Of a DNA stretch of 25,030 nt, positions 3,583 through 18,256 are shown piece after piece. The translations under genes were made by a program, and so were the position numbers. The stretch's first letter is position 1; every line of letters starts with the position of its first letter. The notes under the pieces were generated by a model. It made no database searches. It saw nothing but the letters and a program-made list of their open reading frames with translations, and was not told the DNA's origin. The stretch is taken from positions 18,882 through 43,911 of IMG/VR virus record IMGVR_UViG_3300030106_001787; one strand, 5' to 3'. The DNA comes from a virus.

Positions 3583-3867
3583 CTACCAAGCCTTACACGA
3601 CCAGTATCTGGCCGAAAACTTGTCTTTTGCGGTATCGCATTTATGCCGTGCGCGGAAAGACTTACGTCTTGCGGGCTGGCTTTTCTTGATGGTCATTTTG
3701 CTATCGCCATAACGCACGAGCTTGACCTCGTTTCCTTTTTTGGCGAGAACTGCGCTTTTTTTGGCTTTACCGGGCGTGCGCTTTGGCTTGTTGTAGCCAG
3801 CAAAAGTCTCCCCCCTGTAGCTTAATCGCCCAGAGGGGAGTCGCTTTACGTCTTTGGTCGTAGCCAT
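3583..3867 (-). CDS. Small basic protein with ARHKCDTAKDKFSARYWSCKAW C-terminus, 94 aa
   Basis: The protein is Lys/Arg-rich, with an N-terminal LPSGRLSYRGETFAGYNKPKRTP block. Its C-terminal block contains RRKSFRARHKCDTAKDK and SARYWSCKAW. The paired Cys (HKC...WSCKAW) and aromatic residues look like a small folded unit. I recall this C-terminal pattern in marine phages and algal viruses as a domain of unknown function. The start lies three bases after the preceding stop, and I see no close Shine-Dalgarno, so translation may depend on coupling. Codons 10-20 contain a strong RNA hairpin, described separately. The role is unknown; nucleic-acid contact is suggested only by charge. Confidence 0.75.
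   Translation of the reverse strand: MATTKDVKRLPSGRLSYRGETFAGYNKPKRTPGKAKKSAVLAKKGNEVKLVRYGDSKMTIKKSQPARRKSFRARHKCDTAKDKFSARYWSCKAW
3808..3840 (-). other. 10-bp RNA hairpin inside the start of the 94-aa gene
   Basis: In the minus-strand transcript CUCCCCUCUG pairs fully with CAGGGGGGAG across a 13-base loop: nine Watson-Crick pairs and one G-U. On the plus strand the wobble becomes an A-C mismatch. The stem is followed by ACUUUU. It starts 27 bases after the A of the start codon. It could be an attenuator, a weak terminator or an RNA-processing site, or a by-product of codon choice for LPSGRLSYRGE. Confidence 0.4.
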
Positions 3868-11400: not shown

Positions 11401-12884
11401 CAGTAGTAAACCCTTCTATCTCGCCGCATTGGGTAAATATCCCTGTCATAGTCATCACCCAGCGACAGAAAGCCGCCCTGTCGGAAACGCATCAGCGCCA
11501 TTGTTGCCGAATCACAGAAGTCATCGTGATCGCCGTAAGGAAAAGCGGCCATCTCCTCGATTACCTCTTCGGCAAAACCTTCATCTGGGGCCCAAACCAT
11601 TCCAGACTCGAAAATTGGGGCCACAGAGTTCATTCTGGCAATCTTATCCTGCCCCCTGCTTGGTGTATAGGCGGTAACGGGGATGCCAATACGACGCAAC
11701 TCCTGCGTCAAGGGCGTGCCGCTGGCTTTCGCCTCAATCAAAACGCAATCTGGCTCCCAATATTTGTATTCCTCCCACGCCAGCTTTTTGAGTTCTGGAA
11801 AATCAGCACGCACTCGCTTTGCGTCAAGCAAAATAATTTGATCTGGCTCGCCATCTTGCGGTTTAAAAACAGCCCAAGTCGTTATCGCAGAGTAGTCGGC
11901 GGTTTCTTTCTTCGAGAATGCAGTGTCATAACTTTGTATGACATAGTTGTACTCGGGCACATAATCCTCGTGCCAGCGGCGCCACCAATCACGCTTTACA
12001 ATAGAACCTTCCTCGGCGGTTGGATCTTGCATCCATTGGGCATTCCACTTGGACAGCGGCAAAGATGCCTTGACAGACAAAAGCTCTTCTTTTTTCCAAA
12101 ATTCTGGCCATAAAGGGGCGTCTGAGTCAGGCATGATGGCGGGAAACTCCACCAACTCCCACTGATCGGCGTAATCGTCGCCCTGCTTCTTCAAAACCCG
12201 GCCTACGAGATCTTTGGTGCTCCACCTAGTCATTACTATGACAATAATACCGCCCGGCTGAAGACGCTGACGCGGGCCAGACGTGTACCACTCATATACC
12301 GAATCCATGGCAGTAGGGCTCAAGGCGTCTTGTTCTGATACAGGATCGTCAATTATCAGCAAGTCTGCGCCTCGACCTGTGATTGCGCCGCCCACACCAG
12401 CATAAAATGACTCTCCGCCCTTGCTGGTGGTCCACCTGCCCGCCGATTTGTTGTCGGCTTGAAGTTTCAGCTCGGGAAAAACAGTCGAGTATTCATCGGA
12501 ATCGATGATATTCCGCACTCTACGGCCAAATCTGACGGCAAGTTCCGCAGTGTGAGTGGTTTGAATTATTTTCAAGTCGCCCCTGAGCCCCATCATCCAT
12601 GCTGGAAAGAAGGTAGAAGCAAATTCTGACTTTGTGTGTCTTGGCGGGAGGCAAACAATTAATCTTTTTAGCTTGCCCTGAGCGATGCGATTGAATTTTT
12701 CACCAATAATACGATGATGTCGGCCCTCTACAAAATCGGGCCACTGACTCTTTACAAATTGTATGAAGTCTTTTTGACAAACTTCTTGTTTTTCAATTGT
12801 TTTATATCTGTCAAGTAGGGCGAGCGCTTCTTGTTGCTCTTGCTCAGACAAAATTTCGAAATCTTTTAAGGCTAAATTAGACAT
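11400..12884 (-). CDS. terL: Terminase large subunit
   Basis: The 494-residue protein is the DNA-packaging motor. The N-terminal ATPase has a TerL-type Walker A (CLPPRHTKSEFAS, about residues 78-90), a Walker B LLIIDD at 175-180 with the following Pro, and a coupling motif VMTRW at about 217-221. The C-terminal RNase H-like nuclease has Asp in QSYDTAF (D320), Glu in LIEAKASG (E384) and Asp in GDHDDFCDS (about 452-458). All key acidic residues are present. The open frame extends to 13001, but that part overlaps the endolysin and looks unlike a terminase. The ATG at 12884 directly follows GGAAGG and overlaps the endolysin stop by eight bases. I see no small terminase gene beside it. Confidence 0.93.
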   Translation of the reverse strand: MSNLALKDFEILSEQEQQEALALLDRYKTIEKQEVCQKDFIQFVKSQWPDFVEGRHHRIIGEKFNRIAQGKLKRLIVCLPPRHTKSEFASTFFPAWMMGLRGDLKIIQTTHTAELAVRFGRRVRNIIDSDEYSTVFPELKLQADNKSAGRWTTSKGGESFYAGVGGAITGRGADLLIIDDPVSEQDALSPTAMDSVYEWYTSGPRQRLQPGGIIVIVMTRWSTKDLVGRVLKKQGDDYADQWELVEFPAIMPDSDAPLWPEFWKKEELLSVKASLPLSKWNAQWMQDPTAEEGSIVKRDWWRRWHEDYVPEYNYVIQSYDTAFSKKETADYSAITTWAVFKPQDGEPDQIILLDAKRVRADFPELKKLAWEEYKYWEPDCVLIEAKASGTPLTQELRRIGIPVTAYTPSRGQDKIARMNSVAPIFESGMVWAPDEGFAEEVIEEMAAFPYGDHDDFCDSATMALMRFRQGGFLSLGDDYDRDIYPMRRDRRVYY

Positions 12885-13320
12885 CCTTCCAGTCGAGCCC
12901 CTGCCAGAGCAATCCTTCAGCCTTGCGGCGTCTTTTGAGCCCCTGTAAGACCTTTCCGTTTGATTTGTTCCAGCGGGCCATTTCACTGGGCACTTCGTCA
13001 TGGTGCCCCTCGTTCAACTTTTTCAGGAGCGTGCTTTCACCAAGATTGGTAGGGCCCAAGTTGAAAGTCCAAGCAACGAGGGCATCAAATTGATCTTGAT
13101 TGAGGCTTACCTCTACTAGCCGATCTACATAATCCTCGAAGTGCTTGAGATCTTCGAGTAACAAATATTCTGCTTTATCTTTAGTAATTTCATCGCCTTC
13201 TCTGACGCCCCGTGTGTGCCCATATCCGACAGTCCACACATTTGCACTGCATTGATATGCTTTTGTCTCACACCCCTCGAAATGTTTTATGAGGTCAATG
13301 CCCTCTTGCGATGTCCTCAC
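12877..13320 (-). CDS. Endolysin, GH24 (T4-type) lysozyme
   Basis: The 147-residue muramidase cuts the glycan strand of peptidoglycan. The family catalytic pattern E-x8-C/D-x5-T is complete: Glu15 in KHFEGCE, Cys24 in AYQCSANVW, Thr30 in WTVGYGHT. The downstream helical region includes FDALVAWTFNLGPTNL and RWNKSNGKVLQGLKRRRKAE, both typical. The nucleophile-site residue is Cys rather than the Asp of T4 lysozyme, as in several phage members. There is no signal peptide or SAR anchor, so release to the wall needs a holin. Three holin-like genes lie immediately upstream. The start is GTG and overlaps the preceding stop (GTGA). The family is clear. Confidence 0.92.
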   Translation of the reverse strand: MRTSQEGIDLIKHFEGCETKAYQCSANVWTVGYGHTRGVREGDEITKDKAEYLLLEDLKHFEDYVDRLVEVSLNQDQFDALVAWTFNLGPTNLGESTLLKKLNEGHHDEVPSEMARWNKSNGKVLQGLKRRRKAEGLLWQGLDWKDV

Positions 13321-13517
13321 TCCTTTTTGCCGCTACCCAAGAACAGCCCAAAGGCGCCGGTTAGAGCGCCGGTCATTACTGAGACTAACGCCGCCTGCTC
13401 CGGATTGGGATCAGGTAAATCCATAAACCACTCAACGACACGGTACGTCATAAAAATCATCACAAACATGACCAGCCGAGGCAATATTCTCCACTGATCA
13501 AGTATTTCTGGTCTCAC
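13317..13517 (-). CDS. Holin-like two-helix membrane protein, 66 aa
   Basis: Two hydrophobic segments are visible: about residues 12-30 (LPRLVMFVMIFMTYRVVEW) and 42-60 (AALVSVMTGALTGAFGLFL). A short polar loop with DPNPEQ separates them, and the end is GSGKKE. Small size, two transmembrane helices, a charged tail and a position directly before the endolysin all fit a class II-type holin or antiholin. The start is GTG with AGGAAA just ahead, and it overlaps the preceding stop (GTGA). I do not recognise a specific family. Confidence 0.7.
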   Translation of the reverse strand: MRPEILDQWRILPRLVMFVMIFMTYRVVEWFMDLPDPNPEQAALVSVMTGALTGAFGLFLGSGKKE

Positions 13518-13885
13518 TTTCCTACGCCTTTGACTCTTTCAAATGACCTTGCGCCTCCCAACCCAAGCATTCCCAAGAGAAGCGGCATCATCACCCCGGC
13601 GTCTGCTTGCGGCACCTCAACTCCAAATCCTGCGGCGAGGGGAGAAATCAAAAAGTTGACCATCAGCCCCAGTACGCAGGTGTAACCGGCTAGGGGGCGC
13701 CAACTTGATTGAAACCAGTTCCCCTTCGCATCGAGCTTTAGTACCTCAATCTGCTGGAGCGCAATCTCCTGAGCATGGCGCTCTGACATGGTGGCGATGC
13801 TGTGGGCGAGCTTAGCCTTCTCATCCGCATCAGGAATAAACTTGTCAAGTAACCCCGTGACAGGGCCTATCAATGCTTGCAACAT
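13514..13885 (-). CDS. Holin, 3TM / GTA-holin type, 123 aa
   Basis: The N-terminal half is amphipathic and helical (LLDKFIPDADEKAKLAHSIATMSERHAQEIALQQIEVLK). It is followed by the family signature KGNWFQSSWRPLAGYTCVLGLMVNFL. A second hydrophobic helix (GVMMPLLLGMLGLGGARSFER) ends the protein. The WFQSSWRPL then GY pattern is characteristic of the three-TM holin family also found in gene transfer agents and many phages. It should form the membrane lesion that lets the endolysin out. The start makes a TAATG junction with the previous gene, with GGAGG nine bases upstream. This is the best of the three holin candidates. Confidence 0.85.
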   Translation of the reverse strand: MLQALIGPVTGLLDKFIPDADEKAKLAHSIATMSERHAQEIALQQIEVLKLDAKGNWFQSSWRPLAGYTCVLGLMVNFLISPLAAGFGVEVPQADAGVMMPLLLGMLGLGGARSFERVKGVGK

Positions 13886-14096: not shown

Positions 14097-14468
14097 CTAA
14101 CCTTCCGACCAGCCATCATCTTCATCAGTATATTTACCGTCACCATTCGTGTCGCACGATCTTTGGAATGTCTGCATACCAAATGTGTAACCCTCACTCC
14201 ACGGGACATACTGCTTGCACCACTCATGCGAGCCGGGTTGCAATCCGTCCCATGGCGTTTCGATGTAATCTCGTTTGGTGTTAGGTGCTAGCACTCTGAA
14301 ATACACGTCTCCAGAAGAATACTCGCGCTTTACAAAAACTATTTCATGAGTGACATAGGCTTCTTCTCGCCGCTCCAGCGTGTAAGTAGAACCATCCTCA
14401 TAGTCAATATACGTTTGCGCCAAAACGGCAGGAGAAAAAATTAAAGCGAGCAGAATGGTTCTAAGCAT
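14097..14468 (-). CDS. Secreted protein with Ca-binding loop, 123 aa
   Basis: A clear Sec signal peptide (MLRTILLALIFSPAVLA, cut before QTY) is followed by a mature domain of about 105 residues. It has an HEWCKQYVPWSEGYTFG segment and two Cys (84 and 105), likely bridged in the periplasm. Residues 106-117, DTNGDGKYTDED, fit an EF-hand-type calcium loop. There is no lipobox, so it is not an o-spanin in the usual sense. It lies between a membrane coiled-coil gene and the holins. A 69-base gap with a possible promoter precedes it, the second-largest gap in the window. Function unknown; envelope disruption or protection is inference. Confidence 0.75.
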   Translation of the reverse strand: MLRTILLALIFSPAVLAQTYIDYEDGSTYTLERREEAYVTHEIVFVKREYSSGDVYFRVLAPNTKRDYIETPWDGLQPGSHEWCKQYVPWSEGYTFGMQTFQRSCDTNGDGKYTDEDDGWSEG

Positions 14469-14508
14469 GATTCAATCCTCAATGTCGAGTCTTCCAAATT
14501 TGCACAAT

Positions 14509-14536
14509 ATCATAACTAGTATGTAAAATCTTACAA
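14509..14536 (-). promoter_or_regulatory. Possible sigma70-type promoter ahead of the lysis genes
   Basis: On the minus strand TTGTAA (14536-14531) and TATGAT (14514-14509) are separated by 16 bases. They lie in the gap before the secreted protein and the holin and endolysin genes. The -10 box is close to consensus and the region is AT-rich. It would start transcription about 35 bases before the ATG at 14468. Weak evidence, since AT-rich gaps often give such matches. Confidence 0.35.
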
Positions 14537-14537
14537 C

Positions 14538-15008
14538 TCACTCTTCGTCGTTAAGCGGGTTGTCAAGAATTCTTTCGATGCGTTTTTCAAGATCATCCCG
14601 CATGGTCCGAAGCTCTTGATTAATGTCTCTCAGGGAGTCATTGACCCTCTCTTCTAGCGCATAAACGTCGTCCCTAAGTTCTCTCGTAGCCTCAGCAACT
14701 GTGTCATCGGTGTTCCGTGCGATCGACTCAACAACGTCTATATCAGCTTGTAGCCGATCCAGTTCTCTTTCGAGAGCAGTAGTCAACGACTCAACATTAC
14801 CCATCTTCGTGTCGATCACAGCTAGGGCCTCGTCATAGGCACTAAAATCAGGCGAGACGTACTCAGTTACAGCCTGCTCGGCAGTCAATAGGCGCTGATA
14901 CAGTTCAAAGCCACCCCACATAGCGGCTAAAATGCTACCTAGAAACGGTATTGCAAGCAGTAACTTACCGCCCGAAACCTTTAATCCCGCAAATTCTATT
15001 TCTGCCAT
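14538..15008 (-). CDS. Membrane-anchored coiled-coil protein, spanin-like, 156 aa
   Basis: One N-terminal membrane segment (about residues 15-35, LLLAIPFLGSILAAMWGGFEL) is followed by a long coiled coil from about 60 to 150 (LTTALERELDRLQADIDVVE, then REVNDSLRD-type heptads). The end is DNPLNDEE. An inner-membrane anchor with a rod-like periplasmic coiled coil is the layout of i-spanins (Rz type), and the lysis genes are next to it. A separate outer-membrane lipoprotein partner is not obvious, so the spanin call is tentative. It overlaps the preceding gene by 13 bases, with GGTGGA as ribosome site. Confidence 0.7.
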   Translation of the reverse strand: MAEIEFAGLKVSGGKLLLAIPFLGSILAAMWGGFELYQRLLTAEQAVTEYVSPDFSAYDEALAVIDTKMGNVESLTTALERELDRLQADIDVVESIARNTDDTVAEATRELRDDVYALEERVNDSLRDINQELRTMRDDLEKRIERILDNPLNDEE

Positions 15009-16834
15009 TGAATGTCCACCAAATCTTTATATGTGTCTGAGCCACCAATCCTAAGCACACCAAAGGGATCTACCCGTGGGGCGTTATTTGGATAAACCTG
15101 AGTATTTTTGTAAAACTCGTCGCGGTCAGAAAGGTCAACGTCATACTCGTCAAACGCTAGGTTATTAGATATTAAAAACACTGCGACGCTTTGATCTGTA
15201 AAGCCGCCTGTCTCAGATAGCGTGTCCAATTGATTGTCAATACTTTGCTCCACCTGCGCTTGGCTCATGGTTTTAATAGCCACAGTGGCCTTTTGAACCA
15301 TTCTCTGCTCTTGAATGGTTGGCTCGTCGATTTCAAAGCGGCTAAAGTCTGGGGGCTGTGAGCTTAAAAACTGACCAACACTCTGCCCTGTAGCCAGCGC
15401 ATCATTGAAGTCATCTTCAAACTGCGCCTGTGCTGGTGGGGCTACATCAACGGAGGCCATACTATTCGACTGTTGTTGTTGAGACTGTTGTATCAAAGAT
15501 TGAGCAATTTTGGTTTGTTCCGTCGCCATCTGCCAGTAGTTCCCAGCACCAGTTTGACTAACAACCTGTGCCACTTGTTGCATTGGCTCTGATTTTTGCG
15601 ACCTGCTTGCTTGATTGCTTGATTGCGCTGACTGCTCTGCCACAAGCGATAAAGCTATTCCGACTACATCAACGACAGGTCTTGCAGCGGTGCGAACAGA
15701 CTCCGCGACGGGTTCTGGGCGTGTTGCCGCCGCGACCTCCATAGGCGTCACTTGTTTTTCTCTGGCAGGAGGTTCTAACAGCGCCTCTTGCCGCAGAGGC
15801 ATGGGTTCTGGGCTTTGGAGCCTTGTTACCCTCGCGACCTCTGCAATAATTTCATCTGGTTCGGCCTGTCTTAGTTTCTTTTCTTCTTTCTTTGGCTCAA
15901 CCTTTTTTTTCTTTTCCAAACTAGGCAAAGACTCAATCGTTTCAATTGGCCCTTCAACAGCCTCTAAATACATTATCTCAGGGTTCTGCGGAGGTGCATC
16001 GTCTGCACGAGACCTAGCTTCAGGGGGCGCGCCAAACATTTCAGTTTCTTGCGGCGTGTTTTGGTAAGCTTGCGGCGGCTCAGCCTGCTTCAAGGCCCGT
16101 GGTTTACCCGTCCTGTCGGGCTGGTCTAAGTACAGGAAATCGTCAGGAGAATCACCGAATACAACATTTGTGGCCTGTTCAGCAAAAGTCGGAGGCTTTG
16201 GCTCTTCCGCCGCCTGTAGTGCGGCAACTGCTTCTGCGTAACCCGCACAGGACGGGTCATTAAGAGGGTTTGAGCAATCAGGCAAAATAACGGGGTTAGT
16301 GTTCACAGGAGTATAGATGGCTATCACAGACGGGTTTCGGACTGTTGGCCCGTAGTATCCAGCCCAAAACCCACGATCTATGCCCTCTATTTGCAAAGCA
16401 ACAGCCTCATAAGCACTGCCAAAGTCATAAACCTCAGAGCCACTAAAAGTCTGCCACTCTGTAAAAAAGTCTCGCCTGTTTAACACCTCACGAACATCCT
16501 CATCGCCCGCTAGATTTGTCACAGCAAGAAAGGCTTGTAGCTCATCCTGAGTTCCATTCGGATCTGCACAATTACCACCGATCTGATTATTGCAGTTCAT
16601 TAGGGCATCAAACGACCAAGTGAGCGTGAGTATCTGTAGCGGGTCGTACTGCGGCAAAAGACCGCCAGCAGTCACTTCGCCCGTCTGAAAGCTGTATCTG
16701 TAAGTGCCTGCCGCCGCATTGAATGCCACATTATTCGACGCCTGCGTGAGCGTGACTAGATTTTCACTCGTTTGCGTCTGACCGTACCCAGCACCAGCGT
16801 AAAAAAGAAGTAAGGCACCTGCAAAACGCTTCAT
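14996..16834 (-). CDS. Large secreted protein of unknown function, 612 aa
   Basis: The open frame reaches 16939, but the start at 16834 gives a clean signal peptide (MKRFAGALLLFYAGAGYG, cut before QTQ) and has GAAAGGCG ahead. Mature parts: a beta-rich N-terminal domain to about residue 180, with a C81/C89 pair in LMNCNNQIGGNC; a motif DCSNPLNDPSCAGYA at 186-200; a long Pro/Glu/Lys-rich, probably disordered linker (SLEKKKKVEPKKEEKK); a Gln/Ser-rich part (LIQQSQQQQSNSM); and a C-terminal segment ending DPFGVLRIGGSDTYKDLVDIQW. The C-x-N-P-L-x-D-P-x-C-x-G-Y-A pattern is something I have seen in other phage proteins with signal peptides; its role is unknown. One base separates this gene from the Asn/Thr-rich gene before it, so they probably act together. 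Confidence 0.8.
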   Translation of the reverse strand: MKRFAGALLLFYAGAGYGQTQTSENLVTLTQASNNVAFNAAAGTYRYSFQTGEVTAGGLLPQYDPLQILTLTWSFDALMNCNNQIGGNCADPNGTQDELQAFLAVTNLAGDEDVREVLNRRDFFTEWQTFSGSEVYDFGSAYEAVALQIEGIDRGFWAGYYGPTVRNPSVIAIYTPVNTNPVILPDCSNPLNDPSCAGYAEAVAALQAAEEPKPPTFAEQATNVVFGDSPDDFLYLDQPDRTGKPRALKQAEPPQAYQNTPQETEMFGAPPEARSRADDAPPQNPEIMYLEAVEGPIETIESLPSLEKKKKVEPKKEEKKLRQAEPDEIIAEVARVTRLQSPEPMPLRQEALLEPPAREKQVTPMEVAAATRPEPVAESVRTAARPVVDVVGIALSLVAEQSAQSSNQASRSQKSEPMQQVAQVVSQTGAGNYWQMATEQTKIAQSLIQQSQQQQSNSMASVDVAPPAQAQFEDDFNDALATGQSVGQFLSSQPPDFSRFEIDEPTIQEQRMVQKATVAIKTMSQAQVEQSIDNQLDTLSETGGFTDQSVAVFLISNNLAFDEYDVDLSDRDEFYKNTQVYPNNAPRVDPFGVLRIGGSDTYKDLVDIQWQK

Positions 16835-16835
16835 G

Positions 16836-17744
16836 TTACATACGCCTTTCTGGCGTGGGCACTCGCTCTGGATAAGTTTCCCACAGAGCCTTGGCCTCAT
16901 CGCCAATCTGGCCCTCAATTGGGCAAGGGGTTCCAGCATCCATCATGCTTGACCAAACTCGATAGTCTTGGCACATCAGGCTGACAGCGGCGACCCGCAT
17001 CCCCATGTCATACAAGGTTTTGCTGAGCTTGATTCTTTCGCAGTTCTTGTCGCGCACAGATTTGCCAGTTGAAAATCCCAATATCTGCGTCTGTACAGCC
17101 CCTGAAATCCCCGTGGTGCAAAGGTCTTGGCTGTAACTACTGCCTATTGATGGCGCTATCGCGCTTGGTGGCGGAGAGTTTATGTCCTGCGTGATTCTCT
17201 GTGTTGAATCACTGGTAGAGTTGCTGGTCGAATTGCTGTTGTTGGTGTTGACGTTGTTGTTGTTCGAGGTTACCTCGGACGTAGAGTTGCTGGTCTGATT
17301 GATCGTTGTGTCAGACGTTGACAAGCTAACACTGTTGCTGTTGCTAGTGCTCGTATTCTGATTAATGTTCGTAGCAGTGCTAACCGAGGTATTGTTGTTG
17401 GTGTTGTTATTAGTGTTTGTATTGATATTCGTGTTGTTATTGGTGGCGTTGGTGTTGTTATAGTTTCGAATAAAACCGTTGTAATTGGTATCGTTGATAT
17501 TTTGATTCAGGTTGGTGTTGCTATTGATCGTGCTTGAGGTCGAATCAATAACTGACGTATTCACATTTGTGTTGACGTTCGTGTTTGTAGACGTACCCGT
17601 GTAGGTCGTCGTATTTGCATTATTGTTGGTATTGGTAGACGTATTGGTAGATGACGACGTTGTATTTATATTGGTCGTCGTTTCATCACCTAGCGATAGG
17701 ACAGGCCACAAAAAACACGCAGTGATAATTAATAATCTTTTCAT
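16836..17744 (-). CDS. Asn/Thr/Ser-rich secreted protein, 302 aa
   Basis: The signal peptide (MKRLLIITACFLWPVLSLG) is followed by about 165 residues made almost only of Asn, Thr and Ser (STNTSTNTN, NTNTNNNTNNNT). A folded C-terminal domain from about 200 to 302 has four Cys (209, 235, 258, 274) and the sequence DMGMRVAAVSLMCQDYRVW. ITAC at 7-10 also resembles a lipobox, but the hydrophobic stretch before it is very short and continues after it, so I favour type I cleavage. The open frame extends to 17777, but the ATG at 17744 starts the signal. The Asn/Thr tract may be prion-like or a flexible spacer in the envelope. The four-Cys domain looks like a periplasmic disulfide fold. I recall similar genes in marine phages; function unknown. 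Confidence 0.8.
   Translation of the reverse strand: MKRLLIITACFLWPVLSLGDETTTNINTTSSSTNTSTNTNNNANTTTYTGTSTNTNVNTNVNTSVIDSTSSTINSNTNLNQNINDTNYNGFIRNYNNTNATNNNTNINTNTNNNTNNNTSVSTATNINQNTSTSNSNSVSLSTSDTTINQTSNSTSEVTSNNNNVNTNNSNSTSNSTSDSTQRITQDINSPPPSAIAPSIGSSYSQDLCTTGISGAVQTQILGFSTGKSVRDKNCERIKLSKTLYDMGMRVAAVSLMCQDYRVWSSMMDAGTPCPIEGQIGDEAKALWETYPERVPTPERRM
17181..17684 (-). repeat. Low-complexity AAC/ACN tract encoding the Asn/Thr-rich region
   Basis: About 500 bases code for alternating Asn, Thr and Ser, seen on the plus strand as runs of gttgtt, ggtgttg and attggt. The repeat is irregular at the DNA level, with synonymous changes mixed in. The composition is therefore kept at the protein level and is not a recent slippage product. 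Confidence 0.8.
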
Positions 17745-17758
17745 GTGATTTCCACATT

Positions 17759-18256
17759 TTACGGCTTTTCGGGCCATGTAATCGTGCTGGGAAAATCTGA
17801 CTGTTGTGGCACATCACGCAAAGCCTGCCGATACGTTGTCATCTCGTCCGACATGGTGACATCAGACAAACCATAGTGATCGGTCTCCTTTAACAGTTCG
17901 TCCCGTGTGGCGCGTTTAGAGGCCGCTAAAGACGCAGTTTTTGCCGCGTCATGCGCCGCTTTTTGTGCTTCCACAGTCTGAACATCACCGTTGTCATCCG
18001 TGTACTCGGTGAACCGATCTAGCTCTATCCATGCCTGCACCCAATTACCATCAGAGTCTTGCACCACGCCATTCCGTACAACAACTTTATAGTCATCAGA
18101 AGGTGCTGGCTGGGGAGAGGCTAGTATAGGATCAACGTCCAAGGCGTCAAAGGTGCTTTCACCCCAGACTTTTGGAAGGCTCATATTTTTGTTTTCAGCT
18201 TTTAACTCAACGTCGGTTTTGATTGCGCCGCTAGTCCGATTTCGATATTCAGGCAT
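17759..18256 (-). CDS. Tail-fibre assembly chaperone-like protein, 165 aa
   Basis: The C-terminus TYRQALRDVPQQSDFPSTITWPEKP (residues about 141-165) is the hallmark of phage tail assembly chaperones. These usually end with YRQALRD, a short spacer, then (I/V)xWPxxP. The N-terminal half contains YKVVVRNGVVQDSDGNWVQAWI, a short beta segment also seen in such proteins. The middle is an Ala/Lys-rich helix (AQKAAHDAAKTASLAASKRATRDELLKETDHYGLSD). Members help fold or trimerise the fibre encoded just upstream, and this gene follows the 888-residue fibre gene at an 11-base gap. The ribosome site AGGAGA is good. The role in fibre folding is inferred from family and adjacency. Confidence 0.85.
   Translation of the reverse strand: MPEYRNRTSGAIKTDVELKAENKNMSLPKVWGESTFDALDVDPILASPQPAPSDDYKVVVRNGVVQDSDGNWVQAWIELDRFTEYTDDNGDVQTVEAQKAAHDAAKTASLAASKRATRDELLKETDHYGLSDVTMSDEMTTYRQALRDVPQQSDFPSTITWPEKP

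Follow-up and report, generated by a model that had tools for sequence, protein, structure and literature searches.

Three adjacent phage genes, here named A, B and C, form an obligate module that is placed in the lysis cassette. They were analysed in a 25,030-nucleotide stretch of viral DNA (the window) corresponding to positions 18882-43911 of the 55,098-base IMG/VR record IMGVR_UViG_3300030106_001787. The window terminase is 62% identical to that of phage 023Pt_psg01 and 58% identical to that of HTVC027P, and the nearest relatives of the portal are found in HTVC027P, HTVC023P and 023Pt_psg01, so the virus was assigned to the HTVC023P type. It is proposed, with a likelihood judged slightly short of even, that the three proteins constitute a lysis complex that spans the envelope and takes over the role of spanins, although it is not itself a spanin, and we hypothesise that their working is spanin-like. 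None of its components falls into a family with an assigned function, and its make-up corresponds to no known system. The original prediction, made from the sequence, had likewise pointed to no described system of such composition, and no description of the module was found among the papers searched.

In the window, the gene order is fibre, fibre chaperone, A, B, C, D, transmembrane (TM) protein, holin, TM protein, endolysin and TerL. The open reading frames (ORFs) of A, B, C and D, their parts described below, and the holin, endolysin and fibre assembly genes all lie on the minus strand; the originally predicted ORFs, lengths and cluster before the holin were borne out. The spacing is operonic, A and B being separated by 1 bp and B and C overlapping by 13 bp.

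The linkage of the three genes was assessed in public genomes and in IMG/VR. A tblastn census with the four-Cys domain of A as query against 50,697 phage records found A encoded in eleven of them, and the identical eleven, the pelagiphage relatives of the window included, were recovered with the roseophage CRP-207 query, which confirms homology across the A family. Reading of these loci revealed that in 11/11 A is followed by a putatively exported protein and then by a protein that combines a TM segment with a coiled coil and has NPL or NPM at its end; in the roseophage-type loci of CRP-810, CRP-207 and ct7L0027 the middle protein is shorter and unrelated to B. On a broader scale, an IMG/VR scan with A returned at least 536 relatives and an independent scan with C returned 462. 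Among the loci retrieved by the C-based search, both A and B lie upstream of C in all 42 that have more than 4.5 kb of upstream sequence, while B precedes C in all 28 with less than 4.5 kb. The original prediction was of a cassette of four genes, with their co-occurrence as the check; this holds for A, B and C, which are found together in every locus with room for them, and fails for D. Gene D (14097-14468), encoding an exported protein of 123 residues with an EF-hand-like loop DTNGDGKYTDED, has five relatives, and it was rejected as a module member and regarded as a separate, wandering gene because four of the five sit in loci without A-B-C. The relatives of D move among unrelated phage contexts (L126-L129).

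The module is hosted by HTVC023P-type podoviruses, by HTVC033P and CRP-207, which are of the HMO-2011 type (PMC9038755), by the Autographiviridae phage S28-C10, by the small podoviruses HTVC202P and Baldr, by the T4-like Kyanoviridae myovirus Mosig and by the CHUG phage CRP-810. Its cultured carriers are HTVC023P, HTVC033P, HTVC115P, HTVC202P, Mosig, Baldr, CRP-207 and CRP-810. Between Mosig and HTVC033P, which belong to different phage families, A shares 52% identity and C 38%; the module has moved across phage families. Distances in the B C-terminus and in C are correlated (Mantel r 0.89), as are those in A and C (0.78); these values reflect mostly co-inheritance and are no proof of contact. 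A cellular origin was also considered and set aside: the 27 matches in 84,980 genomes were read as phage contigs, because all lie on contigs of metagenome-assembled or uncultured genomes with incoherent taxa. A defence system was likewise dismissed, PADLOC having given no match beyond the coiled coil.

The position of the module in the lysis cassette is evident in the window itself, where a holin with three TM segments (13514-13885; PF11351 1e-15, phrog_3427 6e-28) and an endolysin (12877-13320; phrog_7 9e-58) lie downstream. In 66/110 loci, a search with few seed sequences recognised a holin or endolysin no more than 3 kb after C. GH19 endolysins occur near the module in 22 loci, as the second gene after C in 17, and in HTVC202P and Baldr TerL follows C immediately. 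The strongest evidence for a lysis context is given by two comparisons in which the same genomic slot is occupied by different genes. In HTVC023P, A-B-C is bordered by purM on one side and an M15 endolysin on the other, and in HTVC027P the genes gp12-gp16 lie between a purM 71% identical to that of HTVC023P and an M15 endolysin 93% identical. The second comparison concerns S28-C10, with the order holin-like gene, A, B, C, TerS, TerL, and its relative, the Votkovvirus HTVC200P, with the order holin-like gene, phrog_20984 membrane rod, phrog_24646, TerS, TerL, "holin-like" being in both phages an assignment by TM pattern without a family match. The T7 counterpart of this stretch carries the spanin genes 18.5/18.7.

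The phrog_20984 and phrog_24646 pair, also carried by HTVC019P and Skadi, resembles the module in occupying the same slot and in combining a membrane rod with a small Cys protein, but it has no detectable homology to A-B-C and is far smaller. Of the phage records, 45 contain the phrog_20984 gene and 11 the module, HTVC115P alone carrying both; no significance is claimed for this near-exclusion. In pelagiphages, the rod and the small Cys protein are found near holin, endolysin or terminase genes (L212:3604-4178, L210:4212-4786, L120:1831-2461, L213:5662-6232). Another set in the slot of this pair comprises an exported Cys protein and a TM coiled coil (L120:981-1834, L121:8023-8865, L213:4656-5534), corresponding to HTVC027P gp13/gp14 and to the Skadi "micro-tubular organizer", and shows no homology to A or C. 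HTVC027P gp14 was rejected as an A homologue, as hhalign aligned the signal peptides only, and gp13 was not accepted as a C homologue at a probability of 28%. Separately, a class 3 lipase gene, possibly encoding an additional membrane-attacking enzyme, directly follows C in eight module loci (e.g. L022:8136-8870).

Gene C (14538-15008) encodes 156 residues, with an N-terminal TM segment (residues 16-34, LLLAIPFLGSILAAMWGGF; 14907-14963), a long coiled coil and the motif N-P-L at residues 150-152 (14553-14561). Across the family, the single hydrophobic segment near the N-terminus follows a conserved G-x-K, and a coiled coil of variable length leads to the NPL. As the first selection of C proteins demanded a terminal NPL and was circular, the invariance of this end is quoted from proteins found with hidden Markov models (HMMs), where NP[L/M] ends 71/71 and 78/78 complete sequences. 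By the charge rule, the flank on the N-terminal side is more positive in 48 and that on the C-terminal side in 14 of 68 proteins, which leans towards an N-in topology and is not decisive. Database matches of 33 C proteins were to generic coiled coils and were discarded. In roseophages CRP-810 and CRP-207, the C homologues (L010:8165-8587, L011:3292-3873) bear the GenBank label "lysozyme", which is wrong, as these sequences consist of a TM segment and a coiled coil.

This architecture invites comparison with two-component spanins such as Rz/Rz1 and T7 gp18.5/18.7. C is a putative inner-membrane protein with an N-terminal TM segment and a coiled coil, which in an i-spanin would be periplasmic; it adjoins holin and endolysin genes and has putatively exported partners, and in S28-C10 the module is flanked by a holin-like gene and the terminase genes, close to where the spanins are encoded in T7. 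Unlike those systems, the module has no outer-membrane lipoprotein, its two exported partners measure 300-900 residues and no specific family match is obtained. Spanin families gave only weak coiled-coil matches to C (phrog_739 in 2/33), and none was found in the window record or in 18/19 records, the remaining one having a marginal match at 3.6e-4. A lipobox was seen in 0/137 A and 1/109 B proteins, and window A and B have neither the lipobox nor the C-terminal TM segment of a unimolecular spanin. In 107 of 110 loci no ORF with a lipobox lies near C, so that a conventional o-spanin is not apparent there; the other 3 loci have such an ORF. With the defining lipoprotein missing, the module is not a spanin by family.

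The same neighbourhood could also host a sensor of lysis timing, in which exported A and B would detect an envelope or outside signal and steer the holin or endolysin via C, like T4 RI/RIII lysis inhibition or the Mu releasin. Such a role, which would agree with the adjoining holins and an exported disulfide-rich domain, was considered highly improbable. Mu releasin gp25 is, like C, a short TM-plus-coiled-coil protein in the lysis region, and one C homologue is annotated as DUF2730, the releasin family (PMC9239132). However, the Pfam matches listed at E<=0.01 for 33 proteins of the C family, covering 25 of 52 families, do not include PF10805 (DUF2730), and C was for this reason not taken as a releasin. 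Moreover, the window endolysin, which begins MRTSQEGIDLIKHFEG, has an N-terminus without a hydrophobic stretch of the signal-arrest-release type, and releasin action needs no co-inherited large exported proteins.

Signal peptides had been predicted on A, B and D, and a membrane-anchored coiled coil on C; both predictions were upheld. With a crude rule-based test, signal-peptide-like starts were scored in 115/137 A, 87/109 B and 24/134 C proteins and in 32/478 control ORFs, i.e. in 80-84% of A and B against 7% of controls; in the window, A, B and D score as signal-peptide-like and C does not. This is a heuristic indication that A and B are exported. Its bearing extends to the idea that A and B are virion-associated adhesins, decorating the tail or capsid, with hydrophobic N-termini that are not signal peptides. 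Tail fibre genes lie immediately upstream of A, namely the tail fibre assembly protein next to it (17759-18256; PF16778 3e-18) and a DUF7483/LamG fibre, and CBM-like folds are common in tail fibres. Against this, the signal-peptide-like starts are retained in the proportions given, the conserved Cys pairs suggest an oxidising periplasm and the obligate partner C is a membrane protein; a virion location was judged very unlikely.

Gene A (16836-17744; phrog_20531 9e-11) encodes 302 residues comprising a signal-peptide-like start, a tract rich in Asn, Thr and Ser (residues 20-183; 17196-17687) with Asn at every second position, a PPPSAIAPS linker and a four-Cys core (residues 184-302; 16839-17195), in accordance with the predicted union of an Asn/Thr-rich tract with a four-Cys domain. 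Across homologues the tract spans 17-500 residues, with a median of 71% Asn/Thr/Ser. An Asn-Asn spacing of 2 is enriched (z>2) in 109 of 112 homologous tracts (mean z 5.6), and spacings of 1, 3 and 5 show no enrichment in the same set. Such spacing is consistent with extended beta strands that carry Asn on one face. The core holds 39 invariant columns in an alignment of 64 homologues. In the structure prediction suggested with the original prediction, AlphaFold2 gave confident helices (predicted local distance difference test, pLDDT, >90) in the C-terminal half of the core only, and neither fold nor profile searches matched the core to the PDB. The sole family matching A is phrog_20531, of unknown function, to which 15/16 tested A proteins match; a Pfam match to Lin-8 was dropped as driven by composition.

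Gene B (14996-16834) encodes 612 residues with a signal peptide, a lectin-like beta-sandwich, a C-x-N-P-L-x-D-P-x-C-x-G-Y-A motif, a central part that is charged and disordered, and a conserved C-terminus; the Cys motif and disordered parts had been predicted and were confirmed. The model of whole B is of low confidence (mean pLDDT 54), and only its beta domain was used. This domain (residues 53-176; 16307-16678) resembles FBA/CBM sugar-binding domains, with Foldseek matches in the PDB to Fbs1 (4e-5) and CBM16/CBM4 (about 1e-3). Pfam detected NIDO in 6/29 members of the family and FBA in one; by a rough count of motifs, 38 of 67 heads are NIDO-like and 20 CBM-like. The head is swappable, FBA/CBM-like in the window and NIDO-like in many relatives. 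The Cys-pair unit of about 22 residues is present once in the window (CSNPLNDPSCAGYA; 16235-16276) and repeated in several relatives (L048, L050, L055, L064). One B protein (L048:5383-7710) carries many tandem CxxNPLYDxxCPGYxxAYxxQQ units, each of about 22 residues; to our knowledge, this disulfide-pair repeat has no description. The conserved C-terminal region (14999-15196) follows the pattern Y..D..FY....Y... and ends in QWQK/QYR.

The features of A and B also raise the main rival, an exported adhesive fibre on the infected cell, in which A would polymerise via its Asn/Thr strands, B would provide a lectin tip and C an inner-membrane anchor for assembly, with superinfection block or cell clumping as the outcome. 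The Asn period of 2 in 109/112 tracts, the lectin-like or NIDO-like heads and the Cys-pair units of B all speak in its favour, and it accounts better than the lysis complex for the strand-forming tract and the lectin-like head. A precedent exists in the curli of the type VIII secretion system (T8SS) encoded by pelagiphages, for which superinfection block or cell clumping was proposed (Wittmers 2022, PMC9599517). That system is likewise a multi-gene exported module with a strand-forming subunit, common to podo- and myo-pelagiphages; A-B-C, however, is unrelated to the Csg proteins by the searches run. The CsgG pore (PF03783) was not found in the 55 kb window record, although positive controls were detected, so that curli proper were rejected, and no outer-membrane secretion pore is visible for a fibre. 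Furthermore, the tract of A has almost disappeared in ctXG6705 (L008) while A and C persist, and a fibre fits the lysis slot poorly. On balance, a fibre was judged unlikely, with better prospects than the sensor or the virion adhesins.

The roles originally offered were envelope disruption, superinfection block and exported structures on the infected cell; position and slot replacement favour the first, while the lectin-like head and the strand-like tract keep the exported structures in consideration. According to the proposed lysis complex, A-B-C would be made late in infection as an exported complex across the envelope and would stand in for spanins at the outer-membrane step of lysis. The N-terminal segment of C would reside in the inner membrane, with the coiled coil and its fixed NPL end reaching into the periplasm. 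Sec-exported B would dock through its conserved C-terminus to C or A, extend across the periplasm by means of the Cys-pair unit and the disordered, charged part, and use its swappable lectin-like head to bind an envelope glycan (peptidoglycan or lipopolysaccharide), while Sec-exported A would supply an Asn/Thr polymer able to form strands, together with a domain held by disulfide bonds. Once holin and endolysin have removed the wall, the bridge would collapse or polymerise, opening the outer membrane. We infer the B-C or A-C contact via conserved ends, the glycan target, the topology of C and the disruption of the outer membrane.

Several observations weigh against this lysis complex. No seed-recognised lysis gene lies in range in 44/110 loci, the middle protein of roseophages is unrelated to B, the topology of C is ambiguous by charge and HTVC115P has both the module and the phrog_20984 gene. 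The phrog_20984/phrog_24646 set is itself no more than a candidate spanin analogue, 3.6 kb far exceeds the need of outer-membrane disruption, and a swappable lectin-like head with a long strand-forming tract resembles a surface adhesin or fibre more.

Apart from the module, small basic proteins with a high Lys content and repeat-like sequences (MKTKGMKKGGMMKSKG and others) are encoded near the capsid genes, at 1500-2374 and 3583-3867 of the window.

Spanins are lacking in 13% of phage genomes, 20 of 91 such genomes being from marine cyanobacteria, and another route has been called for (Kongari 2018, PMC6139136). How phages without a visible spanin open the outer membrane is an explicit question, for which A-B-C is a concrete, testable candidate, found in phages that infect SAR11 and other bacteria abundant in aquatic habitats. 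In its fullest form, the proposal is more doubtful than that of a lysis complex as such: A-B-C may represent an undescribed class of machine for outer-membrane disruption, a bridge across the envelope that is built of three proteins without a lipobox, carries a glycan-binding head and a strand-forming Asn/Thr polymer, passes between phage families that are not related and serves hundreds of aquatic phages as a substitute for spanins. Should A-B-C instead prove to be a surface fibre, it would join the pelagiphage curli as the second system of exported fibres carried by phages.

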